DNA of 37,185 nt from positions 1-37,185 of the forward strand of contig CANIPU010000023.1 in NCBI GenBank assembly GCA_947469485.1. The letters run 5' to 3'. The stretch's first letter is position 1; each line of letters opens with the position of its first letter. This stretch comes from Chitinophagaceae bacterium. Lineage in GTDB: Bacteria > Bacteroidota > Bacteroidia > Chitinophagales > UBA10324. A program made the position numbers and the translations under genes. This document shows, piece by piece, positions 3,095 to 37,185 of the stretch. The notes beneath the pieces are model-generated. The model was not told the DNA's origin and did no database searches. It saw nothing but the letters and a program-made list of their open reading frames with translations.

Positions 3095-6000
3095 ATGCTC
3101 AACAGAATAATAAACTTCTCACTCTACAATCGCCTGCTCATTATAGTAGCAAGTGTGTTGCTGATAATTTTTGGAAGTTACATAGCCACCCGAATGGAAG
3201 TGGATGTATTTCCTGATCTAACTGCTCCAACGGTTGTGATATTAACCGAAGCGCATGGCATGGCTCCCGAAGAAGTGGAGAAGCTCGTAACATTTCCGAT
3301 AGAAACTTCGGTGAACGGAGCAACAAATGTTCGAAGAGTTCGAAGTTCATCATCAGCCGGAATTTCTATCGTTTGGGTAGAGTTTGAATGGAACACCGAT
3401 ATTTTTAAAGCACGACAAATTGTAAACGAAAAAGTAATTGCCGTTGCCGAAAAATTACCGCAGGGAGTTGGCAATCCAACCATGGCGCCGCAGTCGAGCA
3501 TCATGGGCGAGGTCATGTTCATTTCACTTACTGCCGACACCACTTCATTAATGGATCTGCGAACCATTGCCGACTGGAATATTCGCCCGCGATTACTGGC
3601 AACCGGTGGTGTGGCGCAGGTAATAATTATGGGTGGCGAATACAAGCAGTACCAGATTCTGGCATCGCCGCAAAAAATGAATTACTACAATGTATCGCTG
3701 AATGAATTATTGAAAGCCACACAGCAGGCAAACGGAAATTCATCGGGTGGGTTCATGAATGAATATGGAAACGAATACATCGTAAAAGGAATCGGCAGAA
3801 CCAATGATGTAAATGAATTAGGAAAATCAGTTGTCAAATCTTCCAATGGAAAAGTCATTCGGATTGAAGATGTGGCTGAAATAAAAATTGGTGCCGCTCA
3901 AAAAATCGGCGATGCGTCGTCCAATACTAAGCCCGCAATTGTATTGTCCATTGCCAAGCAACCCGCGACCAACACATTGGAACTCACAAAAAAAATTGAT
4001 GAGGCGGTGGCTGAAATGCAAAGCAATTTGCCACGCGATATAAAGATCAACACGCATATTTTCCGGCAAGCCGATTTCATAAATGCCTCCATCAGCAACA
4101 TTCAGAAAACATTATTGGAAGGAAGCATTTTCGTAGTCATCATACTCTTCTTGTTTTTGATGAACTGGCGCGCAACAGTTATTTCATTACTCGCCATTCC
4201 CATTTCACTCATTGCCGCCATACTCACATTGCATTGGCTTGGATACACCATTAACACCATGAGTTTGGGTGGAATGGCCATTGCCATTGGGGCGTTGGTG
4301 GATGATGCAATTATTGATGTTGAAAATGTTTTCAAAAGATTGAAACAAAATGCACTGAAGCCGGAATCGGAACGAAAAAATAAACTCACAGTAATTTTTG
4401 ATGCATCGGTTGAAATCAGAACATCCATTATCAATGCAACATTCATCATCATCGTTGCATTCATTCCGCTTTTCTTTTTATCAGGCATGGAAGGAAAATT
4501 ATTGGCGCCTCTTGGCATAGCATTCATCGTTTCACTTTTTGCATCGCTGATAGTGAGCATCACACTCACTCCGGTATTGGGAAGTTATTTATTAACCGAC
4601 GAAAAAATGTTAGCGCGACAGCACAAGGAGAGCTGGCTGGTGGAGCGGTTGCAAAAAACTTACACCACACTTTTAGTAAATGTAATGCGATGGAAAAAAA
4701 CAGTAATCGGAGTTTCGGCAATGCTTTTATTAGTTGCACTTTTTATTATGTCGCAATTGGGAAGAAGTTTTTTACCTGAGTTTAATGAGGGCTCATTAGT
4801 AATAAGTGTGGTGAGTTTGCCCGGAATTTCATTGGAAGAAAGTAATAAGTTGGGGACGCAGGTGGAAACTGCATTGCTGACTATTCCCGAAATAAAAATA
4901 ACCACGCGTCGAACCGGTCGCGCTGAACTGGATGAACATGCACAAGGAGTAAACTCATCAGAAGTGGAAGCGCCTTTCACGCTTGATGAAAGAAGTCGCG
5001 AAGAATTTATGATGGAGGTTCGCGAAAAACTGGCAACTGTTTCGGGAGTAAACATTACCATCGGGCAACCCATCGGTCACCGCATTGATCACATGTTATC
5101 AGGAACCCGTGCCAACATTGCCATCAAAATTTTTGGTAATGATTTGAATAAACTCTTTACACTTTCGAACGAAATAAAAAATGAAATTCAAAACATAAAC
5201 GGACTGGTTGATTTAAGCGTGGAACAACAGATTGAAATTCCGCAGTTGCAGATAAAAGCAAAACGCGACATGCTCAATCATTATGGAATTACGATTGGAG
5301 AATTCAACGAATTTATTGATGTGGCATTTGCCGGCGAAAAAGTTTCGGAGATATATGAAAACAATAAAACCTTTGATTTGATACTTCGCTTCAACGATGC
5401 AAATCGCGGCTCCATTGAAAATATCCGCAACACTTTGATTGATGTGGGTGTCAGTGAGAATGATGTAATGATTGACGAGACAAGTGAAATAAAAACTTCA
5501 ACCAATCAATCACATCATCGCCGAATACCACTTCACTACATTGCAGATATTGTAAGTACGAGTGGCCCGAGCACTATCAATCGCGAAAATGTTCAGCGCA
5601 AAACAGTAGTATCAGCCAATGTTGCCGGTCGCGATCAGAAAAGTGTGGTGAGCGAAATTCAGCAAACCATTAACAGTAAAATAAAACTCCCCGAAGGTTA
5701 TCACATCGAATACGGAGGGCAGTTTCAATCCGAAGCCGATGCATCAAAAACATTGCTAATTACATCGCTGCTTTCATTGTTCATTATTTTTCTGTTGCTC
5801 TATCAGGAATTTAAAAACATAAAAATTGCGGGCATCATTTTATTAAATCTTCCACTTGCACTTATTGGTGGTGTGTTCAGCATTTATTTCACAAGCGGAA
5901 TCATGAGCATTCCATCCATTATCGGGTTCATCACATTATTTGGTGTGGCTACACGAAACGGAATTTTATTGGTGTCGCATTACAAAACATTACAAGAAGA

Positions 6001-23661: not shown

Positions 23662-25188
23662 ATGGGAGAACCAATTGATGAAATAATAATTAATAAAGGG
23701 AATCAGGAAATGGATTCAGCATTAGAAGAAATTCAAAACTTCACGGGTAAGTATCCTAAGCAATTGTGGTATTTGTTTTTTAGTGAAATGTGGGAGCGCT
23801 TTTGTTTTTATGGTATGCGCGGTATGCTTACATTCTTTATGGTTAACCAATTGATGATGGATGAAGGACAAGCGAATTTGCAGTATGGAGCAACGCAAGC
23901 ATTTGTTTATGCCTTCACTTTTATCGGCGGATTATTCGCGGATAAAATTTTAGGATTCCGTAAATCGCTTTTCTGGGGAGGGTTGTTGATGATTACCGGC
24001 AGTTGCATTCTAGCCATCAACCCACATGATTTTTTCTTTTTAGGAATCAGTTTCTCCATTATAGGCACCGGGTTTTTTAAACCGAATATTTCAACTATGG
24101 TTGGCTCACTTTATAAAACAAATGATGCCAGAAGAGATGCAGGATTTTCGCTTTTCTATTCAGGTATAAATGTTGGAGCCTTGTTAGGTGGCTATGTGTG
24201 TATTGCTATTGGAAAAGGATATTCGTGGAATCTTGCTTTTGGTTTTGCAGCTATAGTTATGACAATTAGTTTGCTAACTTTTGTTTTTACACAACGCAGT
24301 TTAGGCCCAATTGGTTTGTCGCCGTTTGCGAACTCAAAAGATGGAAAAAACAGAAAGTGGTACGACTATGCAGTGTATGCAGGTTCTCTTGCGATCATTC
24401 CTGTAATTATGGTAATGGTTGCCAAAACCGAATACACAGATTGGTTTATGTATGTGGTTGGTCCGGCTGCCTTACTTTATATTTTTTATGAGATGACGAA
24501 ATTTTCTTGGGCTGAGCAGAGGAAATTATTGGCAGCTCTTGTGTTTATAATTTTCTCTGTTTTGTTCTGGGCTTTCTTTGAACAAAGTGGGGGTTCTCTG
24601 AGCATTTTTGCCGCAAATAATTTAAATAATACTGTAGTCGGAATCACACTTGATCCAAATGGAGTTAACAATGCTGCTAATTCATTATTTGTAATAATTT
24701 TTGCTCCTTTATTAGGAATATTATGGATATGGATGGCAAAAAAGAAAATTGAACCCAACACTGTTGTGAAATTCGGATTGGGATTTTTGTTTTTAGCACT
24801 AGCATTTTATGTTTTTTACGCAACAAGGTTTTTTGCATCAACAGAGGGTATTACCTCGCTCGATGTTTTTACGCTTGCATATTTTATTATCACTTTTGGT
24901 GAATTGTGTTTATCGCCAATTGGGTTATCTATAATGACTAAATTATCACCTAAGGCTCTTCAGGGGGTTATGATGGGTATGTGGTTTTTAGCAAGTGCCT
25001 ATGGGCAGTACGCAGCCGGTATATTAGGAGCCGGAATGACGAGTCCTGATGAAAATGCAACAATTGCTGAAAAATTAATTTCATATACGGATGGATATAA
25101 GCAATTGGCAATCTATGCTTTGATAGCTGGATTGGTTTTAATACTCATTTCGCCATTAGTGAAAAAATTAATGCAGGAAGTAAAGTGA
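23662..25188 (+). CDS. Proton-coupled peptide transporter (POT/PTR2 family)
   Basis: A 508-residue major-facilitator-type transporter for di- and tripeptides. The N-terminal helix carries the proton/peptide motif ExxERFCFYG (in FSEMWERFCFYG). The segment GTGFFKPNISTMVGSLY and the later FEQSGGSLSIFAANN are family signatures. About 12-14 helices are visible. A soluble N-terminal tail of about 30 residues precedes helix 1. It brings in peptides whose aromatic residues could feed the neighbouring catabolic genes; this link is inferred. Confidence 0.94.
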   Translation: MGEPIDEIIINKGNQEMDSALEEIQNFTGKYPKQLWYLFFSEMWERFCFYGMRGMLTFFMVNQLMMDEGQANLQYGATQAFVYAFTFIGGLFADKILGFRKSLFWGGLLMITGSCILAINPHDFFFLGISFSIIGTGFFKPNISTMVGSLYKTNDARRDAGFSLFYSGINVGALLGGYVCIAIGKGYSWNLAFGFAAIVMTISLLTFVFTQRSLGPIGLSPFANSKDGKNRKWYDYAVYAGSLAIIPVIMVMVAKTEYTDWFMYVVGPAALLYIFYEMTKFSWAEQRKLLAALVFIIFSVLFWAFFEQSGGSLSIFAANNLNNTVVGITLDPNGVNNAANSLFVIIFAPLLGILWIWMAKKKIEPNTVVKFGLGFLFLALAFYVFYATRFFASTEGITSLDVFTLAYFIITFGELCLSPIGLSIMTKLSPKALQGVMMGMWFLASAYGQYAAGILGAGMTSPDENATIAEKLISYTDGYKQLAIYALIAGLVLILISPLVKKLMQEVK

Positions 25189-25219
25189 TTTGCATAAACA
25201 GGTTTATCATTTACATTTG
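25189..25219 (+). promoter_or_regulatory. tRNA-Cys promoter, perfect Bacteroidota consensus
   Basis: TTTG at 25189-25192, a 19-base spacer and TACATTTG at 25212-25219 match TTTG-N19-TAnnTTTG exactly. Transcription would begin about 3 bases before the mature tRNA. Confidence 0.85.
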
Positions 25220-25228
25220 CCGGCATCA

Positions 25229-25299
25229 GGTCGGATGGCCGAGCGGCTAGGCAAAGCTCTGCAAAAGCTTCTACAGCGGTTCGAATCCGCTTCCGACCT
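25229..25299 (+). tRNA. tRNA-Cys (anticodon GCA)
   Basis: A 71-nt tRNA. The acceptor stem is 25229-25235 with 25292-25298. The anticodon loop CTGCAAA has GCA at 25261-25263, on a perfect stem (25254-25258 with 25266-25270). The T loop is TTCGAAT and the discriminator is U, as in nearly all Cys tRNAs. CCA is not encoded. The accessory region begins immediately after it, so its 3' end is a likely integration site. Confidence 0.97.
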
Positions 25300-25312
25300 C
25301 TATTATTTTTGT

Positions 25313-25352
25313 AAGCCATTGATAATCAATCTATTCAATGGCTTCTTTTTTT
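25313..25352 (+). terminator. Terminator after tRNA-Cys
   Basis: A perfect 10-bp stem (25313-25322 with 25335-25344) has a 12-nt loop and runs into seven Ts at 25346-25352. Confidence 0.85.
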
Positions 25353-25554
25353 GGGGTGCGGTGCGGGGTGCGGTATTTTATTCGATGAGTTTATTTTATT
25401 TTATAATTACTTGAAAATATTTTTTTCTGCGTTATAAAAATCAGGAAGCGTAAATAATTTATTTTTAATTATCATTTATATCTATAGATATTAAAGAATA
25501 TCTAACATGCAGGGCAGTCACAGGTATAAATAAAATGAAAACGACTACTGCTTT
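25353..25554. other. Non-coding junction region after tRNA-Cys with G-rich repeats and palindromes
   Basis: Two direct copies of GGGGTGCGGT lie at 25353-25362 and 25365-25374, an unusual G-rich patch in AT-rich DNA right after the tRNA terminator. Further on, the 14-bp palindrome ATATCTATAGATAT (25478-25491) shares its right arm with a second dyad, AGATATT-AAAG-AATATCT (25486-25503). No gene is seen. The layout resembles an att/excisionase region of an integrated element, but no integrase is present. Confidence 0.5.
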
Positions 25555-25830
25555 TTATTTTTGCATCGCTTTCATTTCCATTTCTGTAATGGTGTCAACA
25601 CGACTGTCCCTGAGCCATTGCAATATTTCTGATTTCAGAAATAAAAGCTTCCCGGTCGGTTTGCAAAACGGGATTTCCCGATTGGATGTTAAAGCATAAA
25701 TGGTTTGCCTGTCAAGTTTTATATATTCAGACAGTTCATCAATATTCATAATCTCTTCAAAGCCAAGTTTAAGTTTTGATGCAATCATTCCTGCGAGGTC
25801 ATCTAGCTGAGGCGTGAATTTATTTTCCAT
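25555..25830 (-). CDS. Helix-turn-helix protein, excisionase/MerR-like
   Basis: A 91-residue protein. Residues ~28-75 form the excisionase-type winged helix (HTH_17-like): MNIDELSEYIKLDRQTIYALTSNREIPFCKPTGKLLFLKSEILQWL. Proteins of this type bind DNA as recombination directionality factors or small regulators on mobile elements. Its place just behind the tRNA-Cys gene supports a mobile origin of the region. Two overlapping dyads (25478-25503) lie downstream of its stop and could be its binding site. No integrase gene is next to it. Confidence 0.8.
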   Translation of the reverse strand: MENKFTPQLDDLAGMIASKLKLGFEEIMNIDELSEYIKLDRQTIYALTSNREIPFCKPTGKLLFLKSEILQWLRDSRVDTITEMEMKAMQK

Positions 25831-25915
25831 TTTATTTATTTTGAATTCAACTGAAAATTAAAAATCGATTTAGTATCAAAAAATATTTTGAATTCAGTAT
25901 TATTTACAAGAGGAC

Positions 25916-26224
25916 TCAGCTTTCGATTTTCAGAGAATAAGATATATGAAACCGGAAGAAATCATCTCCTTTTAAAAACTGGTCAATAACCTTTCCATAG
26001 TAGTTGCAGGATTTATTAAAGCACCGTACTTGTAAATAATGTTTTTTATAATTTTCAAATTGATGCGCTTCACCCTTGCAATGCGGACATTCCTCCGTAA
26101 TAAACATGATGGCGAACCAATTGTCATTTTCATCCATCATTAAATACTCATACACTTCCTTCAATTTTTCAGTCGAAAGATTATTTATATCTTCTAATGA
26201 TTTTATAGTTTCTGTTAAGGTCAT
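25916..26224 (-). CDS. Small protein with zinc-ribbon-like Cys pairs
   Basis: A 102-residue protein I do not recognise. The N-terminal ~45 residues are helical and acidic. The second half holds two Cys pairs, ECPHC and RCFNKSC, in a zinc-ribbon-like arrangement. The gene is divergent from the deiminase-like gene, with 51 bases between start codons, so the promoters are shared or back to back. It may be an adaptor or nucleic-acid-binding protein; this is a guess from the Cys pairs only. Confidence 0.55.
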   Translation of the reverse strand: MTLTETIKSLEDINNLSTEKLKEVYEYLMMDENDNWFAIMFITEECPHCKGEAHQFENYKKHYLQVRCFNKSCNYYGKVIDQFLKGDDFFRFHISYSLKIES

Positions 26225-26275
26225 TTTTTATTTTATTCCTAAATATATTACAAATATGAATACCGGAATTATGGA

Positions 26276-27160
26276 GTGAATATTGAGATGGAGATTTTTA
26301 AATTCTCGCAAATGATTACTGATTTCGAAACCAATTTTCTCTGGTTGGCAGATTCACTCCCAAAGAAGTCCCCGAATTTTTATAAGCGATTGGAAAAATT
26401 ATTGATTGAAAATAAAGTTGAATTCAATTTGCTGCCGGGTACAAAAGATATATGGGCGGTAGATTATATGCCGATTCAAATCTGCAAGGACAAATTAATT
26501 CAGTTCATTTATCATCCGGATTATTTGCAGAGCAAGAAATGGCAAAAAACTATTTCTGATACAGATGCTATTTGTAAATCAATAAATGTTAAACCAAACA
26601 AATCTGAAATAATAGTTGATGGCGGTAATGTTATTCGCACTTCTGATAAAGTGATTATGTGTGAAAAGGTTATTATGGAAAACCCCCATTACAAACGAAA
26701 GGAACTGATTACGATGCTTGAATTATTATTTGAGGTTGATAAAATCATTTTCATACCGACTTACCCAAAAGATGAATTCGGTCATGCTGATGGAGTCATC
26801 CGCTTAATCGATAGTCAAACTGTTCTGATAAATAAATCTTCTCATAAAGATTCAAAGCAGGAAATTGAATTTGGGAAATTATTGCGTTCAATTCTGCGCA
26901 GGGAAAATCTTAATTTTCATGAATTTGCTTTTTACCCCTTCAACAATAAATCTGACTTGCAAGCCAATGGAATTTATATTAATTACCTGCACATGAAGGA
27001 AATTATTTTTGTTCCAGTTTATGGAATGAAAGAAGATAAATCAGCAATAAAAACAATTGAAGAACTTTTTACTGGAAGCAGAATAGAATCCATTGATTGC
27101 AATGAAATCGCCAATGAAGGAGGCGTGCTGAATTGTATTAGTTGGAATATTTTACAATGA
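26276..27160 (+). CDS. Agmatine deiminase-like enzyme, degenerate motifs
   Basis: A 294-residue protein of the guanidino-group-modifying (penteins) superfamily, closest to agmatine deiminases/PPAD. Seen, counting from the GTG at 26276: DIWAVDYMP (usual D-x-W-x-R-D-x-G-P), VDGGN with D115, GHADGVIRL with H170 and D172, and GGVLNCISWN with C287 (usual GGGxHCIT). The Cys-His-acid catalytic residues are kept, but the Arg of the first motif is Val and the His before the Cys is Asn, and the protein is shorter than the usual ~350 residues. The substrate may therefore differ from agmatine. The start is GTG at 26276 or ATG at 26288. Confidence 0.75.
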   Translation: MNIEMEIFKFSQMITDFETNFLWLADSLPKKSPNFYKRLEKLLIENKVEFNLLPGTKDIWAVDYMPIQICKDKLIQFIYHPDYLQSKKWQKTISDTDAICKSINVKPNKSEIIVDGGNVIRTSDKVIMCEKVIMENPHYKRKELITMLELLFEVDKIIFIPTYPKDEFGHADGVIRLIDSQTVLINKSSHKDSKQEIEFGKLLRSILRRENLNFHEFAFYPFNNKSDLQANGIYINYLHMKEIIFVPVYGMKEDKSAIKTIEELFTGSRIESIDCNEIANEGGVLNCISWNILQ

Positions 27161-27186
27161 AATTGTTGCGGAGAGTTTGTAAAAAA

Positions 27187-27384
27187 TCAATCATTCAAAT
27201 AAATCTCAACTACAATTTTCAGCCAGTTGCCATCCCATGACTTGGAAATTAATTTGGCTGAGAATTTTTTTCCAGCATCCATCAGGTTGGCAATCACTTC
27301 GTTTTTTTCTTTCGGTATATAACCGATTTTATTTTTGTTGTAATAAATAGCAATTGCTCTTTTATCAAATTTATGGGGGCATAT
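27187..27384 (-). pseudogene. Truncated HIRAN-domain gene remnant
   Basis: On the minus strand this open stretch reads through a HIRAN-like segment: DKRAIAIYYNKNKIGYIPKEKN, then NEVIANLMDAGKKFSAKLIS and WLKIVVEIYLND before the TGA at 27187-27189. This is the C-terminal part of the HIRAN fold (the A+V..GYIP core). The N-terminal half is missing. In frame, a stop is met just upstream and no start codon is available. HIRAN domains occur with DNA-repair and defence enzymes. The break point lies next to the promoter of the AAA-protease operon, so insertion of that operon may have cut the gene. Confidence 0.6.
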
Positions 27385-27441
27385 TCCATTTTAAGATTTA
27401 AAAATTCGAAAAAAAATCTTTTAACTGAAGTTGTTTTTTTG

Positions 27442-27478
27442 TACCGACATCCTTTGGCGGTTCAGTATGGTACTCTTG
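27442..27478 (+). promoter_or_regulatory. Shared 37-bp promoter/operator, copy R4 (AAA-protease operon)
   Basis: Dyad CCGACA (27444-27449), 5-base spacer, TGGCGG (27455-27460), then -7-like TACTCTTG at 27471-27478. Fixed spacing and sequence match three other copies in the island. It lies 14 bases before the ATG at 27493 and sets the start of the AAA-protease gene. Confidence 0.75.
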
Positions 27479-27492
27479 TATCAAAAACAATT

Positions 27493-29607
27493 ATGAAGAA
27501 AATAAAAACTGTTCCGAACCGACACGAAATAATTCGCAAGAAAGAAAAACTGGATAAAGTTACTGCTCAATTGAAGCGGGAATTTATCGGTATTGACAAA
27601 GTAATTGATGAAATTACCGATGCGATTAGCTCATGGTTCATTTTTCCGGAGATACAAGAAAAACCTGTAGTTATAAATCTGTGGGGACTAACCGGTGTAG
27701 GAAAAACATCTCTGGTTAAAAGGTTGGTGGAACTTTTATCATTTGAGAAAAAATATTTTCGATTTGACATGGGGGAAGTTTCGGATAATAAGTGGGCAAT
27801 AAAGGGTGAACTGGAAGAAATTTATGAAGGACTGAATGGCCTTCCGGTAGTTATAGGGCTCGATGAGTTTCAGCATGCAAAAACATTAAGTGAAAATGGG
27901 ATGGAGGTAAATAACCCTGCAACAAGAATAGTTTGGGATTTGTTGGATAGCGGAATGCTTTCTATTGTACACTATGAAAGAGGGATCAATGAAATACCCG
28001 AAACGATAAAGCAGCTATTGCTTTGTGTGAAGATGGGAGTGAAAGTTAAAAATGGAGTCGTGATTTCAGAGCGTGATTTGTTTGTTAAAATTATGAAGCT
28101 GAAAGAGGAATTTGAATTCACTCAAAAGGAATCTGAAAAGGATGAATCGAGATTTACATTTTTATCAGAATCGTTTCGTGACCAGATGTATAGATGGGTG
28201 AAATTGAAGTTCGAGAATTCAATGGTATTTAATAAATACCTGGATACCATGAACGCACAAAGGACAATTGAATATCTGAACAAAATTTATATGGATAGCT
28301 ATGCTGATGTTTTGCTGGATTGCACAAAGGCAGTTGTATTTGTGATGGGTAATTTAGATGAAGCTTACAGCATGAGCAACGATTTTAACCCTGATATGAG
28401 TGCAGATGATTTTTACCAGCAGTCGTTGAAGATAAATATCACTAACATTAAAAATGTTTTACGCAGGAGATTTCGCAACGAACAAATTGCGCGATTGGGG
28501 AACATTCATGTTATATATCCGGCATTTAGTAATCATTCATACCAAAAGATTATTAAAAGCGAACTGAATTCAATTACAAAAACCATCAAAAGAAATCATC
28601 AGCTGCATCTTGAATTTGATAATTCAATTAATGAAGTTATTTACCGGGAAGGTGTTTACCCAACACAGGGGACCAGACCGTTATTTACAACCATTCACCA
28701 AATCGTTCGCTCAAAACTTTCTAAAATAATTTGTTTCAGAGAACTGAATTGTCAGGAGGCTGACAGAGTGATAATTTCATATAACAACGAGTTAATCAAT
28801 TTTTCGTATTTCGAAAAGAAAACTTTTCTGAAAGAGTTTTCAGAAAAAATGATTTTGAATCTTGAAGTGTTAAGGAAGGAAAAGAAAGATGATATGCAGG
28901 CAATAGTTGCAGTACACGAGAGTGGCCATGCAATAGTTGCTTCACTTTTAATGCGTATTCTTCCTGAAAGAATTTTTTCTTCAACGGTGGATACAGAAAC
29001 AGCGGGATTTGTTTTCTTCAATGAGAGAGCAAAATATACTTCTAAAAAAGATATTCTGAATATCTTGGCGCGAATACTCGGAGGTTATGCAGCAGAAAAA
29101 ATTGTATATGGTGAGGAGAATGTGACATTAGGGTCAGAAGGCGATATTAAACGGGCAACAGAATTCGCCATTGGTATATTAAAGGAATGCGGAATGGGAA
29201 AGATTCCGGCAAAATTTGCATTGGCAAGTTCAAGGTCGAACTATTTCATCTGTAATTCAAATGAAGAAATTGAAAAGGAGGGAGTAGAATTAATTAAGAA
29301 TGCATTAGTGCTTGCGGAAAAAGTATTGGAAGAAAATAAGTTTTTGCTGTTGAAGATTTCGGATTATTTAAGTGATCACAGAAGTATTGAAAAAGAAGAA
29401 TTAAAAAAAATAATTATCCGGTATTCAACCTATCCTGTTAATGCAAAGGATTATTTTATAACTGATGGCAGAGAAATATTTTACAGAAACAAACTGAAAG
29501 AATTACTTGAGAAAAAACCAATTGCAAGTAGTAGTAAAAGTGTGAGTGAATTGCAGTTAGCGAATTTTTCATTAAATAAATTAAAACAGAATGATTCACA
29601 ACTGTAG
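27493..29607 (+). CDS. Clp-type AAA+ ATPase fused to FtsH-like M41 metalloprotease
   Basis: A 704-residue soluble protein with no membrane helices. Residues ~20-450 are an AAA+ module of the ClpB/ClpX (HSP100) class, not of the FtsH class. It has Walker A GLTGVGKT (G65-T72), Walker B GLDEFQ (D124, E125), a sensor 1 Asn (N287 in VFVMGNLDE) and a sensor 2-type GTRPL (R395). About 100 extra residues (~170-275) are inserted between Walker B and sensor 1. Residues ~460-650 are an M41 peptidase: HESGH (H475, E476, H479) and the third zinc ligand D551 in LGSEGDIKRAT. It is probably an ATP-driven protease with unusual targets. The ATG at 27493 was chosen over 27373 because the shared promoter lies just before it. 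First gene of a four-gene operon. Confidence 0.85.
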   Translation: MKKIKTVPNRHEIIRKKEKLDKVTAQLKREFIGIDKVIDEITDAISSWFIFPEIQEKPVVINLWGLTGVGKTSLVKRLVELLSFEKKYFRFDMGEVSDNKWAIKGELEEIYEGLNGLPVVIGLDEFQHAKTLSENGMEVNNPATRIVWDLLDSGMLSIVHYERGINEIPETIKQLLLCVKMGVKVKNGVVISERDLFVKIMKLKEEFEFTQKESEKDESRFTFLSESFRDQMYRWVKLKFENSMVFNKYLDTMNAQRTIEYLNKIYMDSYADVLLDCTKAVVFVMGNLDEAYSMSNDFNPDMSADDFYQQSLKINITNIKNVLRRRFRNEQIARLGNIHVIYPAFSNHSYQKIIKSELNSITKTIKRNHQLHLEFDNSINEVIYREGVYPTQGTRPLFTTIHQIVRSKLSKIICFRELNCQEADRVIISYNNELINFSYFEKKTFLKEFSEKMILNLEVLRKEKKDDMQAIVAVHESGHAIVASLLMRILPERIFSSTVDTETAGFVFFNERAKYTSKKDILNILARILGGYAAEKIVYGEENVTLGSEGDIKRATEFAIGILKECGMGKIPAKFALASSRSNYFICNSNEEIEKEGVELIKNALVLAEKVLEENKFLLLKISDYLSDHRSIEKEELKKIIIRYSTYPVNAKDYFITDGREIFYRNKLKELLEKKPIASSSKSVSELQLANFSLNKLKQNDSQL

Positions 29608-29657
29608 ATAATTAATGAGTGCTTTGAATAAATTCACATCCGACAAAACAATATGCT

Positions 29658-31652
29658 ATGAACAAGAAAAGGTATCTGACTAAATCACGATTTAAGTTAG
29701 CAAAGGAATGTCCGACTAAATTATTTTATACAGGTAAAGATTTATATCCGGATGAAAATGCCGGAGATAGTTTTCTGGAATCATTGGCGAAGGGTGGTTT
29801 TCAGGTTGGCGCTCTGGCTAAATTTTATTTTCAGAATGGAGAATATTATGATTTAAGTGCTGAGACAAGTCATAATAAATCTGTTGAGCAAACAGAAGAA
29901 TTAATGAAGAAGAAGGATGTAACAATTTTTGAAGCAGCCGTCCGGTTTCAGAATTTATTTATCCGGGTAGATGTGCTTGTGAAGAAAGGAAATAAAGTTG
30001 AACTGATTGAAGTGAAAGCAAAATCAGCAAAGGGAGATGATGAAGCAGAATTTCTGAATGCTAAAGGCGACAAGGTTAATTCTGACTTGCGTCCTTATCT
30101 TGAAGATGTTGCTTTTCAAAAATATGTACTTTCTCAGTCGCATCCTGAGTTAAAAGTATCAGCCTTCTTAATGCTCGCCGATAAAAGTTCAACTGTGAGT
30201 GTTGATGGATTGAATCAGGTTTTCAAAATAAAAAAAGAAGCCGGAAGAAATAAAGTTGAGGTTGATACTGTGAGATTAAAAAGTATCGGATTAGGAAAAA
30301 AAATTCTTGTGAATAAATGCGCAGATGAAGTTATAGATATGTTGTACAAGGAGAAAGATGATTCCGGCAGAGACTTTTTTGAACAGATAAAATATTTCGC
30401 TGATAATTATGAAGCGGATAAAAAAATAATTACCCCTGTTGGCATCCAATGCAAAGGATGTGAGTTTCAAGTGAACAAAGAATCTGTAGAAGCGAAAAGC
30501 GGCTACAAAGAATGTTGGAAGAGTCAATTGAAGTGGAGTGATAAAAAATTTGATGAGCCTCAGGTATTTCAAATCTGGGATTATAAATCAGCAAAAAAAA
30601 GAATAGCAGAAGGACGATATTTTATGAAGGAACTGACCGAAGATGATTTTACAATAAAGTCAACTGAAGAAGGATTGTCGCATGGAGAGCGTCAATGGAT
30701 GCAGGTTGAAAAGTCAAATAATAATGATACCACACCATACTTAGATATTGATGGTTTGAAAATTGAAATGAAAAAATGGAAATTCCCTCTTCACTTTATT
30801 GATTTCGAAACTGCGGCGGTAGCAGTTCCGTTCTTTAAGGGGATGAGACCTTATGAGGGGGTGTCATTTCAATTTTCTCATCATACGGTTTCTGCCAATG
30901 GAAATATAGAACATGCAGGCCAGTACCTGAATGCCGCTATTGGTGAATTCCCGAATTTTGCTTTTATCAGAAATTTGAAAAGCGAATTGGATAAAGATAA
31001 CGGTTCCATCTTTCGCTATGCGCCTCATGAAAATACTTATCTGAATATGATTGGTTCGCAATTGAAATTATCAAAAGAAAAGGATAAGGATGTATTAATG
31101 GAATGGATAAAAACTATAACTCAATCACCAGACAAAAGTGCAATAAAATGGAAGGGAGAGAGAAATATGATTGACCTCTGCAAGATGGTGAAGAAATATT
31201 TTTATCATCCACTCACTAAAGGTTCAAACTCCATTAAGAAAGTTTTACCTGCTGTATTAAATGAATCTAAATATTTGCAAGCGAAGTATTCAAAGCCGGT
31301 TTATGGTGCTGTTGGAGGGATTAAAAGTTTGAATTTCAAAAACAAAGTATGGATAGAATTTGATTCAGATAAGAAAACTGTTAAGGATCCATACAAGCTT
31401 CTTCCTTCTATTTTCTCCTCAACAGAGTTAAGTGATGAGGTAAATAATTTTATTGCGCAAAATGATATGGATGAACTTTCAGATGGTGGGGCTGCTATGA
31501 TGGCTTACAATATGTTACAAATGACTAAAGGTTTTCTAACAGTGACCGATGCATTGGGGGCTGCGTTGTATAAATATTGTGAACTTGATACTCTGGCAAT
31601 GGTTATGATTTGGGAGTATTGGAATCATGAAATTAATAGCGCTAAAAATTAA
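29658..31652 (+). CDS. DUF2779 protein: Cas4-like nuclease plus DEDD exonuclease domains
   Basis: A 664-residue protein of the DUF2779 group. The N-terminal part resembles Cas4/RecB-type nucleases: LTKSRFKLAKECPTKLFY at the start, then D105 and E118-V-K120 as the PD-(D/E)XK core. Four Cys (C18, C265, C268, C286) are placed as in the [4Fe-4S] nucleases Cas4/Dna2/AddB. The C-terminal part (from ~375) is an RNase H-like DEDD exonuclease: D382 and E384 in HFIDFET, D506 in MIDLCKM, and Y640/D644 in YCELD. It probably degrades DNA, or possibly RNA. It lies 50 bases after the AAA-protease gene. No CRISPR genes are near, so it is not a CRISPR Cas4. Confidence 0.82.
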   Translation: MNKKRYLTKSRFKLAKECPTKLFYTGKDLYPDENAGDSFLESLAKGGFQVGALAKFYFQNGEYYDLSAETSHNKSVEQTEELMKKKDVTIFEAAVRFQNLFIRVDVLVKKGNKVELIEVKAKSAKGDDEAEFLNAKGDKVNSDLRPYLEDVAFQKYVLSQSHPELKVSAFLMLADKSSTVSVDGLNQVFKIKKEAGRNKVEVDTVRLKSIGLGKKILVNKCADEVIDMLYKEKDDSGRDFFEQIKYFADNYEADKKIITPVGIQCKGCEFQVNKESVEAKSGYKECWKSQLKWSDKKFDEPQVFQIWDYKSAKKRIAEGRYFMKELTEDDFTIKSTEEGLSHGERQWMQVEKSNNNDTTPYLDIDGLKIEMKKWKFPLHFIDFETAAVAVPFFKGMRPYEGVSFQFSHHTVSANGNIEHAGQYLNAAIGEFPNFAFIRNLKSELDKDNGSIFRYAPHENTYLNMIGSQLKLSKEKDKDVLMEWIKTITQSPDKSAIKWKGERNMIDLCKMVKKYFYHPLTKGSNSIKKVLPAVLNESKYLQAKYSKPVYGAVGGIKSLNFKNKVWIEFDSDKKTVKDPYKLLPSIFSSTELSDEVNNFIAQNDMDELSDGGAAMMAYNMLQMTKGFLTVTDALGAALYKYCELDTLAMVMIWEYWNHEINSAKN

Positions 31653-31696
31653 TTTCTACAGCCCACATTTTTTATTCATCACAAATTTCTCCAGCC

Positions 31697-32614
31697 ATGT
31701 CACGACAAGGAACCATTAAACGATACACACTCATCATTGAAAAATTAGAGCGGAAACATTTTCCGACTTTCTATGATTTGAAATCAATGATGGAAGAGGA
31801 AGGGTTTTCAATTTCATCGCGAACATTGGAAAGAGATATAGAGCAGATTCGAAATGAATTTGGAGTTGTGATTAAGTATGATAAAAACCGGAACGGCTAT
31901 TTTATTGATAAGGAGAATACAATCAACTTTGAATCGTTCATGCGATTTCTTGAAATTGTGGCAACGGCGGAGTTGTTGATTCAAACAATTCAGGAAGGTA
32001 AGGAAGCACTTAATTATATTTCATTTGAATCGGTTGGAAGTTTTAAAGGGGTTGAATATTTAAAACTTTTTCTCGAAGCAATACGAACGAAGCAGGTAGT
32101 TTCTTTCAAACATTTTAACTGGCATACCAAGCAGAAGAAAGAATTCATTCTTGAACCCTACTTGTTAAAACAATACCAGAGCCGGTGGTATGTATATGGA
32201 AAAGAAAAAAACAGAAAGTATTATCTCACTTTCGGAATTGATAGAATTGAAGAACCGAAATTGCTATCAGATAAGTTTACTATTCCCCGGAATTTTGATC
32301 CAAATGAAAGTTTTAATGCAGTTGTCGGAATTGATTTCTCCGGTGGGAAAAGAGAAACTATAATTCTCTCCATTCAATATCCGCAGGCAAATTATTTGAA
32401 AACATTACCACTGCATGACTCACAAACTATTATCAGCGATGATAAAAAAGAATTAGTTATCAGCATTCATGTGATTCCAAACTTTGAATTGATACAAAAA
32501 ATACTAAGTCATGTGGAATTTATAAAAGTAATTTCACCAAAGTCGGTAGCTGATGAAGTGATGGAGAGGTGTAAGGCGATAATTAAGAGGTATGATTCAA
32601 AAAAAGTACAATAA
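31697..32614 (+). CDS. WYL-domain transcriptional regulator
   Basis: A 305-residue regulator. Residues ~5-75 are a winged helix-turn-helix (SSRTLERDIEQIRNEFGVVI). A linker and a WYL domain follow (~135-200; EPYLLKQYQSRWYVYGKEKNRKYYLTFGIDRI, with WYV in place of WYL). The C-terminal WCX-type extension comes after. WYL domains sense nucleic-acid ligands, and such regulators control phage defence islands and DNA-damage genes. It is the third gene of the operon, so it likely regulates the operon itself through the dyad at 27444-27460; the same dyad stands before three other island units. The stop is 19 bases before the next gene's chosen start. Confidence 0.9.
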   Translation: MSRQGTIKRYTLIIEKLERKHFPTFYDLKSMMEEEGFSISSRTLERDIEQIRNEFGVVIKYDKNRNGYFIDKENTINFESFMRFLEIVATAELLIQTIQEGKEALNYISFESVGSFKGVEYLKLFLEAIRTKQVVSFKHFNWHTKQKKEFILEPYLLKQYQSRWYVYGKEKNRKYYLTFGIDRIEEPKLLSDKFTIPRNFDPNESFNAVVGIDFSGGKRETIILSIQYPQANYLKTLPLHDSQTIISDDKKELVISIHVIPNFELIQKILSHVEFIKVISPKSVADEVMERCKAIIKRYDSKKVQ

Positions 32615-32633
32615 AAAATTAACGAATTTGATA

Positions 32634-33350
32634 ATGAAAAAAAAAGGAGAAATAAAAACTATTAAGATTAATCAACAGGAATTAGAATCCTTACTATATT
32701 TCTTAAAATTTAACAAACCCTTTAGATACTTAGATCAGAAAATATTCGGAAAGGACATTTATAAATCATATGGGGGAATTTATTCACAAAAAAAAATTAG
32801 GGATTATGGATTGTCAAGTAAAGACAAGGGAAAATTATTTATTTATTCTGAGCAACAAGTAAAAATAATAATAAAAAAATATTTGAGCGAAAGAGAAATA
32901 CCCTTAGTTGATATAATTGAAATGATTAAAGCTAAATCAATAATTGAAAATTATAAAAATAGTTATCTAATTGCGCGAGATGTAGAACAAGCTAAAGATA
33001 TTTTAGGGCCAATTGCTAGGAATTTGATTCAAACATTATTTAGAAAAACAAAGATTGAAATCGGCAAATGTGAATTTGATGTTTGCCCTGAAGTCAAACT
33101 TCAAACTGCTCATATCGATATTGATAGACCAAAATTTTTGAAAGATGCAATTCGAAAAATTGGAAAAAATGAAGGCAGATATAATATCTTCAAAATATTG
33201 GAAGTTTTTCTTAATGACCATAAAAAAAAGGGTTGTGTTAGATTTCTTTGTAAAGAGCACCACGATGAGTTGGACTCCTATAAGAAAAAACATAAAAGCA
33301 AAAAATCCAAAGAAAAAATAAAAGAATTTAAAAGTAAATTAATAAATTAG
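32634..33350 (+). CDS. Putative HNH-like nuclease
   Basis: A 238-residue, very Lys/Ile-rich protein. No family is recognised along its full length. The C-terminal half has an HNH-like pattern: C146-x4-C151, then TAHIDIDRP with H160, and FLCKEHHDELD with C206, H209 and H210. This fits the AHI...LCxxHH arrangement of zinc-bound HNH nucleases. The N-terminal ~135 residues may bind DNA or a partner. The ATG at 32634 was preferred to one at 32592 that would overlap the WYL gene by 23 bases. It is the last gene of the operon. AT content is visibly higher than in the core genes. Confidence 0.6.
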   Translation: MKKKGEIKTIKINQQELESLLYFLKFNKPFRYLDQKIFGKDIYKSYGGIYSQKKIRDYGLSSKDKGKLFIYSEQQVKIIIKKYLSEREIPLVDIIEMIKAKSIIENYKNSYLIARDVEQAKDILGPIARNLIQTLFRKTKIEIGKCEFDVCPEVKLQTAHIDIDRPKFLKDAIRKIGKNEGRYNIFKILEVFLNDHKKKGCVRFLCKEHHDELDSYKKKHKSKKSKEKIKEFKSKLIN

Positions 33351-33384
33351 AAAGATGAATGTAGAAAGTGTATATGCTATTATT

Positions 33385-33648
33385 TTATTGAGAGTTTTGT
33401 CCTTGTAGTTCATCAAGAAAATTTTTAAGGAAGGCACAATAGCGATACATTTCTATTGATTCAAAATGGTCAATCATAGATTCTAAAATTAATTCGCCGT
33501 CGTAATTATTTTCGGTACATATGTCTTTGAATTCTTGAAGACTGGCTTTTTTTAATTGGCAGTAGAAAGTGCAGAAGAGTAGGTGTTTCGCCCAGTATTC
33601 TTGCTCTTCTGGGCTCTGTGGAGCTTGCTTTACTTGGTTGCTTGTCAT
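33385..33648 (-). CDS. Small helical protein, unknown
   Basis: An 87-residue protein I do not recognise. It is predicted mostly helical and acidic, with Cys in LLFCTFYCQL and YRYCAFL. The ATG at 33648 was chosen over an upstream TTG that lies inside the -7 box of its promoter. The shared operator/promoter copy R1 lies 18 bases before the ATG, so it is under the same control as the nuclease operon. Small proteins in such islands can be regulators or inhibitors of the toxic partner; this is inference. It is convergent with the HNH-like gene. Confidence 0.6.
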   Translation of the reverse strand: MTSNQVKQAPQSPEEQEYWAKHLLFCTFYCQLKKASLQEFKDICTENNYDGELILESMIDHFESIEMYRYCAFLKNFLDELQGQNSQ

Positions 33649-33666
33649 GGTAGATTTGTTTTTAAA

Positions 33667-33703
33667 CAAAAATACTATTGTGAACCGTCAGAGCGTGTCG
33701 GAG
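33667..33703 (-). promoter_or_regulatory. Shared 37-bp promoter/operator, copy R1 (87-residue gene)
   Basis: On the minus strand: dyad CCGACA (33696-33701), 5 bases, TGACGG (33685-33690), then -7 box TATTTTTG (33667-33674). 29 of 37 positions equal copy R2 by hand count. Confidence 0.8.
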
Positions 33704-33847
33704 AAATATAAATTCTTCTGAAGAAATATTCATTTATCCAAAGAAAACCTATCAAGCAATCGCAGTCTAAATTTAATTACCCTCGTTATTTAATATTAAT
33801 AGATGATATAGTAAAAACTATTTCAAAGAATTTAAACAAGAATGTTT

Positions 33848-34534
33848 CTAAATTCCAAGTTGAACACTCAACATTTTTCCTCTGCAATGAATAAATAGGT
33901 CCTCATAGGTATTTAATGAAATATTTTGAGGGCTATTGATAATTTCAATTTTATGACCTTGGGGGAATTTATAACGCTCTGTAATTAACTTATCATAGCC
34001 AATTATATTTCCAACTATTTTTTCTAAATCGATATTATGAGTTTTTTGGGGGATTTCCGGAATTAAATATGTAATGCAAAAATGTTTTAGCATCCAATCA
34101 ATCTCATTTTTTATTTTCTGTGATGTAAAAAACTTTTGTAGAGTATGGATTCCTTCTGGAAAATGTAACAAGTTAGGATATGAATCATTTGGCAAACTTA
34201 TTCCAGAATTTGGTTTCGCATTGCTGGAGGTTTTTTGATATTTTTTTTGAATTTGCCCGACTAATGTATTTTTTTGAACGCATTCTTTTATATCAAATAT
34301 TGAAAAATTACCGCCTGATAAAAATGCAATGTGCTCATGCGTTCTACTATACATATCATGCGCTTTTCCAACATAATATGGGAAAAACATTTTGGAATTT
34401 GTAGGTATTGTGAAATCTGTTTCTTCTAGTGAAAATCCCCATATGTAAACTCCACTTTTACCATTTCCCTTCCTGAATAATGAGTTATTATTAAAGTCTT
34501 TAATAGTTCTGAAACATTCCTGATTGACATTCAT
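33848..34534 (-). CDS. GIY-YIG-like nuclease
   Basis: A 228-residue protein with the GIY-YIG pattern in its N-terminal part: GVY (Y30 in KSGVYIWG), YVG (Y54 in YYVGKAHD), K57, R64 and H68 (SRTHEH). An acidic residue in KNEIDWMLKHF (about residue 140) is in place for the catalytic Glu. The C-terminal half is unassigned. Spacing between the motifs is somewhat long. Nuclease activity is likely but not certain. It is the only gene behind copy R2 of the shared promoter, with an 88-base gap. Confidence 0.68.
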   Translation of the reverse strand: MNVNQECFRTIKDFNNNSLFRKGNGKSGVYIWGFSLEETDFTIPTNSKMFFPYYVGKAHDMYSRTHEHIAFLSGGNFSIFDIKECVQKNTLVGQIQKKYQKTSSNAKPNSGISLPNDSYPNLLHFPEGIHTLQKFFTSQKIKNEIDWMLKHFCITYLIPEIPQKTHNIDLEKIVGNIIGYDKLITERYKFPQGHKIEIINSPQNISLNTYEDLFIHCRGKMLSVQLGI

Positions 34535-34622
34535 TTGATTTAGGTTTAATTGGATAATAAATAATTTAAAGTATGTATTTGTGTAAATTTAATCATGTTA
34601 ATCGTTAAATATTTCTTTTTAT

Positions 34623-34659
34623 CAAATATATGTTAGTGAACTGCCAGAGCATGTCGGAG
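34623..34659 (-). promoter_or_regulatory. Shared 37-bp promoter/operator, copy R2 (GIY-YIG gene)
   Basis: On the minus strand: CCGACA (34652-34657), 5 bases, TGGCAG (34641-34646), then -7 box TATATTTG (34623-34630), a full match to TAnnTTTG. Confidence 0.8.
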
Positions 34660-34681
34660 AAAAATTAATTCTTCAATTGAG

Positions 34682-35929
34682 CTATTCTAATTCAAGCAGA
34701 TTATCCGATGCACCAATTTGTTTCAAATCTGGAATTGAACTTCCGGCTATACCTTTTATGGAACCAATGAAATGATTGGTGTTAAGCAAAACTTTTTCAA
34801 GTTGTTTTTCCCGTTGTTTCCAGATTCTTTCCATCGCTCTTTTCTCCTGAATATAATTATCGTGTAAGTCTGTAAATCCCTCTATGATTGAACCTACCTG
34901 CAAACGGAATTCATTACTGGTCAGGTAATCATAAAGCATTTGCATTTTTTCTCCCTTGTTAGTTTGTGAAGAATAGGCTTCATTAATTTTTATCAAACTT
35001 TCACGCAATACAAGTATCAATCCTCTGAAATCGTTGTAGCTGCATATCCAAACACCATCTATCTGCCCGATTCTATCAATATCTTCCGGCATAGCTTCAG
35101 TTACTATTACACAAATATCAGCTTTAACTAAAAGTGAATCTGATTTTAATTTAGTCACCCAATCGTTGCTGAATGATTTTGTTCGTTTGCTTTCATAAAG
35201 AATAATTCCATTGTCGGCACCAAATTTATTTCTAACAGTATGAATGATATCCGCACCTTTCACACCTTTAGAAACTTCACCTATTAGGTCAAATGGAAAA
35301 ATTGATTTTAATATTTCTTCTAAAGCTAACTCCTGAATTTCGCCCTGCAATTGCATGGAACCTTGTTCAGATTTCCGCTTCATCTCTTCTGCCAGTTTTG
35401 TTTGATCATCTAATTTTTTCTCGAGCTCTTTTACTTTTAATTCAACCCGTTCACTTTCCCTTTTACGGATTGAACCGGTTTCTTCTTTGAGTCGGTCAGT
35501 CATTTTTTGTTCAAACTCTAATTCAATATTCTGCCGTTGTTCATCAACTTGTCTTTTAAGTTGTTCGTTTTCTATTTTAGTTTTCTTCAATTCATGAACC
35601 TGCTTTTTTGCTTCAATGGATTCATCAGAAAGCGCTTTCATCTGCATTTCATAATCCTGCTGAACTAATTTTTTTATTTCCTTTTCTTTTTTGGCTGATT
35701 CAACTTTTGCTTTTTCTTCAACCAGTAGGTCCATCTCAATTGTTTTCTGTTTTAGTTCCATTTCTTTTTTAACCAATGAACTTTCCTTCGAATGAAATTC
35801 AGTTTCAATTTCTGAAATCTTAGCATTTAACTCTACCCGATATTTTTCTTCCAATTGCTGAGATAAAACATCTTCAATATTGAATTCGTGTCCGCATTTA
35901 GGACAAGTGATTTTTGTGGTTTTTGTCAT
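34682..35929 (-). CDS. DUF2130 protein, coiled coil with PD-(D/E)XK-like domain
   Basis: A 415-residue protein of the DUF2130 family. The N-terminus has a CPKCGHEF zinc-ribbon half site (C9, C12). A long charged coiled coil follows (about residues 20-205). The C-terminal domain begins GEIQELALEEILKSIFP and has a restriction-endonuclease-like core, with D227 in KGADIIHTV and E246/K248 in LYESKRTK. The biological role of the family is not known to me, but its architecture suggests a DNA-bound nuclease. It follows the metallopeptidase-like gene after 145 bases, with a weak hairpin between (36033-36056), so it may or may not share that promoter (copy R3). Confidence 0.85.
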   Translation of the reverse strand: MTKTTKITCPKCGHEFNIEDVLSQQLEEKYRVELNAKISEIETEFHSKESSLVKKEMELKQKTIEMDLLVEEKAKVESAKKEKEIKKLVQQDYEMQMKALSDESIEAKKQVHELKKTKIENEQLKRQVDEQRQNIELEFEQKMTDRLKEETGSIRKRESERVELKVKELEKKLDDQTKLAEEMKRKSEQGSMQLQGEIQELALEEILKSIFPFDLIGEVSKGVKGADIIHTVRNKFGADNGIILYESKRTKSFSNDWVTKLKSDSLLVKADICVIVTEAMPEDIDRIGQIDGVWICSYNDFRGLILVLRESLIKINEAYSSQTNKGEKMQMLYDYLTSNEFRLQVGSIIEGFTDLHDNYIQEKRAMERIWKQREKQLEKVLLNTNHFIGSIKGIAGSSIPDLKQIGASDNLLELE

Positions 35930-36032
35930 TTAGGAAGTTGTTGTTTATTATTTTAAAACTTGAGATTGCAATGCAACATACGAGTTAAGAAAATAGAGTG
36001 AGGATTACAATTAAATATTAATGCAAAAATCA

Positions 36033-36056
36033 TTTTAGAATTTTGATTTTCTAAAA
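36033..36056 (-). terminator. Weak hairpin between metallopeptidase-like and DUF2130 genes
   Basis: Arms 36033-36040 and 36049-36056 (8 bp, all A/T but one pair) are followed by a T-rich stretch on the minus strand. It could attenuate transcription into the DUF2130 gene. Confidence 0.35.
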
Positions 36057-36074
36057 ATTTATTTAGAGAGAAAT

Positions 36075-36872
36075 TTATATACCAATTGTGCCTGCTAAAT
36101 TTGAACCTCTTTTTTTATGGAGTATATCTTTTATTGGTTCACCTGTATATACCGATAAAATAAAACTTGCTAAGTCAATTGGATTTTTTTCATTTCGACA
36201 TTCTATAAATAGATCAATAATCTTATCTCTGTTGGAGATGTCTTTGAGTTTTTTATAACCTTGATATATATCAGGTTGAACTTCAGAAAATTTTTCGAAA
36301 TCTTCAAGAGCAGATGGATTACCATGGAGTGCCCAAACAACCATAAGCTGAGCCCAAGCCTCATGAAAATCCGTGCAGTCTTTCATGTTTAACCATCTGG
36401 TGTTGTTTTTATCCGGGAGCCAATGAGCAATCCAATGTCCAATTTCATGAAGGAGCACAATTAATCGAAGCTGAGTTATAGCATAATTATCATTGATTAT
36501 ATGAGCATCATCAGGAAGGTGAGTCAACCACTTTTTGCCAAGATATTTTCCGCAATATTCAATTGTTTTCTTGTATAAGATTATAATCCCTTCTTTATTT
36601 TCTCCGGGCTTATAATCATAGATGCCTAAAACTTCAGTTGCAAGTTTCTTTTCCTGATTTTTCTTTTCCTCAATCATTTCATCTAAAATTCCATATAATC
36701 CTAAATCAGTAATTTCCTTATTTGGATATTTTTGTTGGATCTGAGGTGGTATTTCATCAGACCAATATATTTCTGGTAATTTTTGTTCTTTAAAACCTGC
36801 TTGGTAAAAAATACTTAAAAGCTTTTTGATTTGTTCACTTTCTTGAGTCGATAATTGATATTCTGTTTTCAT
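36075..36872 (-). CDS. HExxH metallopeptidase-like protein
   Basis: A 265-residue protein of no family I can name. It carries a clear zinc-protease motif HEIGH (H142, E143, H146) on a helix (RLIVLLHEIGHWIAHWLP). H170/E171 in DFHEAWAQL, 25 residues later, would supply the third ligand as in gluzincins. The first 100 residues are charged and helical. No signal peptide is seen, so it is probably cytoplasmic. It lies behind copy R3 of the shared promoter and upstream of the DUF2130 gene, so a peptidase is again paired with a nuclease-like protein, as in the 27493 operon. Confidence 0.65.
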   Translation of the reverse strand: MKTEYQLSTQESEQIKKLLSIFYQAGFKEQKLPEIYWSDEIPPQIQQKYPNKEITDLGLYGILDEMIEEKKNQEKKLATEVLGIYDYKPGENKEGIIILYKKTIEYCGKYLGKKWLTHLPDDAHIINDNYAITQLRLIVLLHEIGHWIAHWLPDKNNTRWLNMKDCTDFHEAWAQLMVVWALHGNPSALEDFEKFSEVQPDIYQGYKKLKDISNRDKIIDLFIECRNEKNPIDLASFILSVYTGEPIKDILHKKRGSNLAGTIGI

Positions 36873-36949
36873 GATTTGGATTTTGAATATTTATTTTATG
36901 TTGGAAAGACTCAATATAACTGAGGTCAACTTGTAAATCTAATTTCTAA

Positions 36950-36986
36950 CAAAAATAAAACTGTAAACCGCCAAATGGTGACGGGG
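36950..36986 (-). promoter_or_regulatory. Shared 37-bp promoter/operator, copy R3 (metallopeptidase-like gene)
   Basis: On the minus strand: CCGTCA (36979-36984), 5 bases, TGGCGG (36968-36973), then -7 box TATTTTTG (36950-36957). The start codon is 77 bases downstream. Confidence 0.75.
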
Positions 36987-37185
36987 TATTTAAAAAATCA
37001 GTAATTAATTTCTGCGGAAATATTTCTTTTCAAAACCTGTACGTCTTCAAAGCAAAGTGAACTAAAGAGGTAAAAAAATAAGAGACACATTTTTGTTGTT
37101 GAATCGAAGTTAAGAATTAATTTTTAGTGTTTAAAAAAGCTTTTTTGCTGGAGTCGTAAAAGTTATTTCCAACCGCAAATTTTTG
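36987..37185. other. Non-coding right end of window
   Basis: Together with 36873-36949, this end holds no gene. Besides copy R3, only a 14-bp palindrome of A/T runs around AAGCTT (37133-37146) is seen. No att-like copy of the tRNA-Cys end is present. Confidence 0.5.

Follow-up and report, generated by a model that had tools for sequence, protein, structure and literature searches.

The closest described counterparts of the system reported here are WYL transcription factors. DriD, a homodimeric WYL activator of Caulobacter crescentus, binds ATACGAC(X)7GTCGTAT, is activated by single-stranded DNA (ssDNA) and occupies sites that overlap the -35 element at a fixed distance from the -10 element, on promoters with poor -35 elements (PMC12340889, preprint). 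The mycobacterial WYL activators PafBC and SiwR also work on promoters without a normal -35 element, PafBC being a heterodimer that uses a -26 motif (PMC11804915) and SiwR relying on the -26 region (PMC10693628). CapW, from cyclic-oligonucleotide-based antiphage signalling (CBASS) loci, and BrxR, from bacteriophage exclusion (BREX) loci, are repressors, CapW having its sites over the -10 element (PMC9122588) and BrxR a box downstream of it, with two boxes in one island (PMC9122601). Both the control of defence loci by WYL proteins and the operator of DriD are already known. Here we describe four related sites in a 37,185-base window, which is one entire contig (C23) of a Chitinophagaceae bacterium genome of 3,078,321 bases in 45 contigs; the sites stand before separate units of an island that also encodes a WYL protein. 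We propose, with a probability of roughly 0.7, that all four serve as activator-dependent promoters and form one small regulon run by the island's DriD-like WYL activator, with ssDNA as its likeliest ligand.

Four sites of one geometry in the window

An earlier note on this DNA had described four copies of a 37-bp promoter/operator (27442-27478 on the forward strand; 33667-33703, 34623-34659 and 36950-36986 on the reverse strand), each before another unit, namely the AAA-M41/DUF2779/WYL/HNH-like unit, the 87-residue gene, the GIY-YIG-like gene and the HExxH gene. We recovered all four at these positions and before these units; they align without gaps and are identical in 18 of 37 columns. Two details ascribed to every copy turned out to be slightly too strict: three copies show CCGnCA-N5-TGnCGG without deviation, the one at 34623 reading TGGCAG, and three have exactly TAnnTTTG as their box, the one at 27442 reading TACTCTTG. 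The spacing is constant: in all four the T of the box lies 19 bases from the middle of the dyad, and dyad and box are 12 bases apart. The half-sites contain CGAC on the left in three copies and GnCG on the right in three, GTCG occurring in none. An ordinary -33/-7 promoter of Bacteroidota has TTTG about 19-21 bases before TAnnTTTG; the note had observed that no copy has TTTG at the normal 19-base distance, and TTTG could not occur 19-21 bases 5' of the box in any of them, because the CGnCA half-site sits there. Palindromes with an N5 gap are likewise a feature of the LexA-like SOS regulators of the same phylum, from which the present motif differs in its letters; a LexA-type SOS site was rejected as a candidate, the motif being unlike the published GGA-N5-TCC or CTAA-N5-TTAG (PMC8565304).

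A pattern made from the four copies and searched through the whole genome with up to three mismatches found these four only, and the reversed control found none; the dyad part by itself gave four matches at no mismatch, none at one and 15 scattered ones at two (control, 5). The outcome that the note had named as refuting, many copies ahead of unrelated core genes, did not occur in this genome. Allowing one mismatch, the generic core has four matches in the window, where 100 shuffles gave 0.03 on average and 1 at most. A sequence-only model, R1, built from alignment A1 (25 sites, including the four window copies and four sites that deviate from the core by one mismatch), returned the four window sites at E up to 5.2e-4 and its next match at 0.2. 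A second model, R2, was made of 53 sites from the named loci described below and holds no window sequence, so that its result is not circular: it ranked the window sites first to fourth (E 4.9e-4, 0.018, 0.092 and 0.18), the next match having E 0.53. Three of these four values are individually weak; the telling point is that all top four places lie inside 9.5 kb. One could argue from the modest number of identical columns that the copies are chance likenesses or remnants of a repeat, but the shuffles, the independent ranking by R2, the fixed geometry in 77 named loci and the fact that the constant columns are those of the dyad and the box, as in other genomes, leave this explanation hardly credible. 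In 15 other genomes of the window's family the window-type pattern (up to two mismatches) was not found, though G007, which belongs to these 15, carries an exact generic site ahead of its AAA-M41 homologue, a gene present in only 1 of the 15.

Recurrence beside WYL relatives in other genomes

When 395 genomes of the phylum were searched with the WYL protein, 157 gave some match at E 0.001, and the loci of full-length relatives from other families had CGnCA-N5-TGnC followed by TAnnTTTG at one distance. The core pattern was fixed from the loci of the first relatives and tested on loci fetched afterwards, with a profile of 13 WYL proteins; the best 79 of 305 are referred to as named loci. Almost all of these are assigned to Bacteroidota or its classes, with isolates of Flavobacterium, Chryseobacterium, Sphingobacterium, Pedobacter, Rufibacter, Cyclobacterium and Mangrovibacterium among them, and the others are assigned to Chlorobiota, Ignavibacteriales, Spirochaetes, Rickettsiales, Ruminococcaceae and 'uncultured bacterium'. 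Geometry was counted on 77 loci, leaving out L140 and L173 as apparent training contigs of genomes G400 and G161. These 77 loci hold 63 exact sites, not all of them independent since L149/L150 and L181/L182 have sites in common, and 38 sites with one mismatch; an exact site is present in 45 loci, and 61 have one if a single mismatch is allowed. Dyad and box are 12 bases apart in 63 cases, and no other spacing between 4 and 29 occurs more than once; with the right half and the box held fixed, the inner gap is 5 in 63 cases and takes no other value from 0 to 13. The reversed pattern is absent from the same loci at both zero and one mismatch, and nine YafY-like WYL loci (114 kb) have no exact site and one with a single mismatch. 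Locus L138 has one additional base between dyad and box (distance 13) before its AAA-M41 gene near 5939, the only clear deviation in spacing seen by eye before AAA-M41 genes. The WYL profile also found 10 relatives in viral contigs (24-30% identity), in which the window-type pattern had no exact match, and WYL relatives occur in 27 plasmid and 9 phage records at identities below 60%.

Site and WYL subfamily also go together across whole genomes. Among 395 genomes of the class, 32 were site-positive (R1 at E 0.01) and 37 held the subfamily (WYL profile at E up to 1e-80, a cut-off chosen after the results had been inspected; 183 of the 395 pass 1e-30): 24 had both, 13 the WYL protein only, 8 the site only and 350 neither (Fisher 1.7e-22, a value that, like the next, treats genomes as independent). 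With the five training genomes removed the counts became 19, 13, 8 and 350 (Fisher 6.6e-18), and 16 of the 19 non-training double-positive genomes have the WYL gene and a site no more than about 6.5 kb apart on one contig, as judged by eye among the matches listed. The corresponding table for the phylum reads 16/6/4/369, on a hand-picked list of 22 genomes and with the training genomes included. The window's own genome has one member of the subfamily. The idea of a single regulon with the WYL protein as candidate regulator, put forward in the earlier note, therefore gains comparative support from four sides: the confinement of the sites to the island, the fixed geometry near WYL relatives, the co-occurrence across genomes, and sites standing before WYL genes themselves.

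Several observations pull the other way. No site within one mismatch was found in 16 of the 77 loci, and these include 8 of the 19 loci whose WYL proteins are nearest to that of the window (L131-L150, L140 left out); L122-L124, which encode full-length relatives, have no exact site. The eight site-only genomes are in part a matter of chance, since E 0.01 predicts roughly four such matches if these rough E-values hold; in two of them, G451 and G628, the contig with the site also holds a weaker WYL match, that of G451 with internal stop codons. Locus L054, in a genome without a WYL match (G024), has an exact site near 1501 (E 5.3e-5), 115 nt before a sugar-phosphate-mutase-like gene, which is possibly a chance occurrence or the trace of a lost regulator. 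The 13 of 37 subfamily genomes without a site weigh in the same direction and, together with the predicted status of WYL binding, leave room for a single regulon whose sites are bound by some other protein, with the WYL gene as a common passenger. Against this passenger explanation, 10 named loci have a site directly before the WYL gene, and no family dominates among the remaining genes that follow sites, the most frequent one reaching 13 of 79 loci. This counter-argument leans on the genome-wide table, in which WYL was the sole partner compared, because the loci had been fetched by their WYL genes. We consider the passenger explanation very improbable.

The WYL protein and its predicted mode of action

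A profile of WYL proteins matched PafBC at 7.7e-20 and DriD at 1e-14, with BrxR and CapW at 5e-5 to 0.28; the window protein alone gave weak matches only, DriD not among them. Its structure model (predicted local distance difference test score, pLDDT, 88.2) is nearest in fold by Z to DriD, with 17.9 for the C-domain (192 aligned residues, root-mean-square deviation (rmsd) 4.3) and 17.6 for the whole chain (273 aligned, rmsd 9.3), compared with 13.6 for PafB, 12.6 for BrxR and 11.5 for CapW. The Pfam domains, the model and the DriD Z score agree with the architecture of DriD-type activators, a winged helix-turn-helix followed by a helical bundle, WYL and WCX. Further likenesses to the DriD regulon are that: 1) the operator core is CGAC-N7-GTCG, which relatives carry as perfect palindromes, the L086 site matching 14 of 14 letters; 2) several scattered promoters would be served; 3) the site covers the -35/-33 region, its distance from the -10/-7 box being fixed. 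The system is unlike that of DriD in its phylum, in its -7 box, in the clustering of its sites in an island with nuclease- and protease-like genes and in the protein sequence, with only 13-14% identity to DriD. As for PafBC, the strongest profile match, the resemblance to PafBC and SiwR lies in promoters without a normal -35 element, and the difference from PafBC in having one gene and a symmetric dyad here.

We surmise that a homodimer of the island WYL protein would bind the dyad CGnCA-N5-TGnCG, centred near -31, in place of a -33 box, and would help the housekeeping RNA polymerase to use the TAnnTTTG -7 box without a -33 partner; the homodimeric state is suggested by the dyad being symmetric. 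A ligand, most likely ssDNA, would arise when DNA is damaged or a phage attacks and would free the WYL protein as it does DriD, and the freed protein would switch on all four units together, its own gene in the AAA-M41/DUF2779/WYL/HNH-like unit included. In the logo of 121 distinct exact sites the dyad extends from -38 to -24 with its centre at -31, taking the T of TA as -12, so that its left half-site stands where a -33 box would be; the position of the start is A in 73% of the sites, and the DNA upstream is A/T-rich.

The earlier note had left it undecided whether a dyad over the -33 place suits a repressor or an activator. Activation is favoured because the site overlaps the -35/-33 region with a constant spacing to the box and because profile and fold are nearer to DriD and PafBC. 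On the opposite reading the WYL protein would be a repressor like CapW or BrxR, blocking polymerase from the dyad and being released by a ligand during infection. Those two are what is known of WYL regulators in defence loci, their operators are inverted repeats as here, and the solved CapW structure 9c5g is titled as ssDNA-bound, so the ligand does not separate activator from repressor. Nor does the missing -33 box help much: TTTG at 19-21 occurs in 0 of the 121 exact sites, where the half-site excludes it, yet it is also rare in other boxes before open reading frames (ORFs; 8 of 183), which makes its absence weak evidence for an activator. What makes repression unlikely, in our view, is the distance of 12 in 63 of 67 matches of the distance scan, with a half-site on the -33 place, and the position of the dyad 12 bases upstream of the -7 box, whereas CapW sites overlap the -10 element and the BrxR box lies downstream of it; both repressors are also weaker profile and fold matches.

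The reading as a DriD-like activator has points against it as well. By Foldseek E-value PafB (8.4e-13) comes slightly ahead of DriD (4.6e-12), and of the 14 letters of the DriD operator no window copy shares more than 7-9. Mutation of four PafB residues abolishes ssDNA binding (PMC11804915); at the corresponding positions the window protein keeps two of the four residues, as Y165 and R173, and has F150 and L177 at the other two. In structure alignment A3, which uses 27 of the 79 named loci (nine of the initial 36 rows were left out, stop codons being named for two, L140 and L189), 14 of 28 rows have R at the position of R181 and 23 have K or R at that of R208, while the position of R204 is basic in one. 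The ligand may differ.

Genes behind the sites

The features of the island are collected in Table 1. For the AAA-M41 gene we prefer the start at 27493, because four homologues begin at the same place; an ORF that starts at 27373 and encloses the operator is probably not the real gene. No site of its own was seen upstream of the DUF2130 gene, which has a relative in L036, close to DUF2779 and WYL genes. A 16-codon ORF (34546-34596, reverse strand) lies between site 3 and the GIY-YIG-like gene and could encode a leader peptide. PADLOC gave the regulator WYL-domain matches, including one to a Cas3c model, and DUF2779 and DUF2130 weak ones; for the other five proteins scanned it gave no match. An RNA element was rejected as a candidate, Rfam at gathering scores showing only tRNA in 25000-37185. 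Next to the island are a tRNA-Cys gene (25229-25300) and, after it, a small HTH_17 gene (25555-25830, reverse strand); given also the rarity of the AAA-M41 gene in the family, the island may be a mobile element beside the tRNA gene. The contig end (37185) falls inside the island or directly behind it.

Table 1. Predicted sites and genes of the island, in window positions
Feature	Position	Strand	Details
Site 1	27445..27478	+	dyad 27445-27459; box TACTCTTG 27471-27478; 14 nt to ATG 27493 of AAA-M41 gene
Site 2	33667..33700	-	dyad 33686-33700; box TATTTTTG 33667-33674; 18 nt to ATG 33648 of 87-residue gene
Site 3	34623..34656	-	dyad 34642-34656 (right half GGCA); box TATATTTG 34623-34630; 88 nt to ATG 34534 of GIY-YIG-like gene
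Site 4	36950..36983	-	dyad 36969-36983; box TATTTTTG 36950-36957; 77 nt to ATG 36872 of HExxH gene
AAA ATPase with M41 protease domain, 704 aa	27493..29607	+	Pfam M41, ClpB_D2-small
DUF2779 protein	29658..31652	+	family search
WYL-WCX transcription factor, proposed regulator	31697..32614	+	Pfam WYL, WCX; in the unit behind site 1
Gene 3' of WYL gene	32592..33350	+	no family match; HNH-like is the earlier note's label
87-residue gene	33385..33648	-	no family match
GIY-YIG-like gene	33848..34534	-	no family match; GIY-YIG is the earlier note's label
DUF2130 gene	34682..35929	-	inside island
HExxH protein (HEIGH motif)	36075..36872	-	no family match above cut-off

Elsewhere, 61 of the 67 exact sites in the 79 loci have the ATG of an ORF of at least 60 codons within 70 nt; the count considers, for each site, the longest ORF with an ATG start inside 300 nt and is not set against random positions. 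The genes behind sites are varied (up to two mismatches, 79 loci), family scans having covered 15 proteins behind sites of genus g26 and 11 behind those of the named loci. WYL genes follow 11 sites in 10 loci (sites with at most one mismatch stand directly 5' of them in 10 of 79); an IetA-like AAA ATPase is the commonest other family, with 13 loci, followed by another AAA ATPase (10), AAA-M41 (4), an RNase T-like exonuclease (3), a GmrSD-type family (3, one scanned) and DnaB-like ATPases. The IetA-like protein (555-559 aa; L168, L171, L178, L191, L196, L199, L201, L208, L209 and others) is encoded directly before the WYL gene in several loci and is a candidate defence partner. Among 14 distinct AAA-M41 homologues, eight have a site directly upstream, including that of G007 in the window's family; besides the window copy two of these sites have one mismatch, and L138, with its distance of 13, is another of the eight. 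The other six have no upstream site, and in L159 and L154 the gene directly follows the WYL gene. The six genomes of genus g26 hold 6-10 sites each at E 0.02, dispersed over the chromosome (L076-L112), with an operator that is often the perfect palindrome CGACA-N5-TGTCG. These sites precede the WYL gene, genes for an M15 peptidase, a patatin, DUF2589, a weak EndoU match and an HNH protein, and genes of a protein family that ends in a secretion-sorting tail, and they possibly mark a weapon regulon rather than a defence island.

From sequence comparison, then, the promoter design recurs beside WYL relatives across Bacteroidota, often before phage-defence-like genes. The claim that nothing of the kind had been described holds for this Bacteroidota promoter design and not for WYL-controlled islands or the core of the DriD operator, which have precedents; we found no description of a Bacteroidota WYL subfamily with such a fixed promoter architecture in the literature searched, a body of text that most subscription papers and bioRxiv lie outside. 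A wider proposal, which we regard as evenly balanced between right and wrong, is that Bacteroidota have a phylum-wide, LexA-independent alarm, run by a DriD-like WYL activator with a grammar of its own (CGACA-N5-TGTCG-N11-TAnnTTTG, no -33 box), which unrelated defence or weapon genes join by carrying the promoter. How defence islands are silenced and induced in a coordinated way is largely an open question, and a sharp motif that predicts membership in such an alarm would be a handle for finding undescribed defence genes of Bacteroidota. If the proposal is true, the DriD operator core would extend to a second phylum, and horizontally moved genes would stay silent until they are in a WYL-holding cell that senses damaged or invading DNA.

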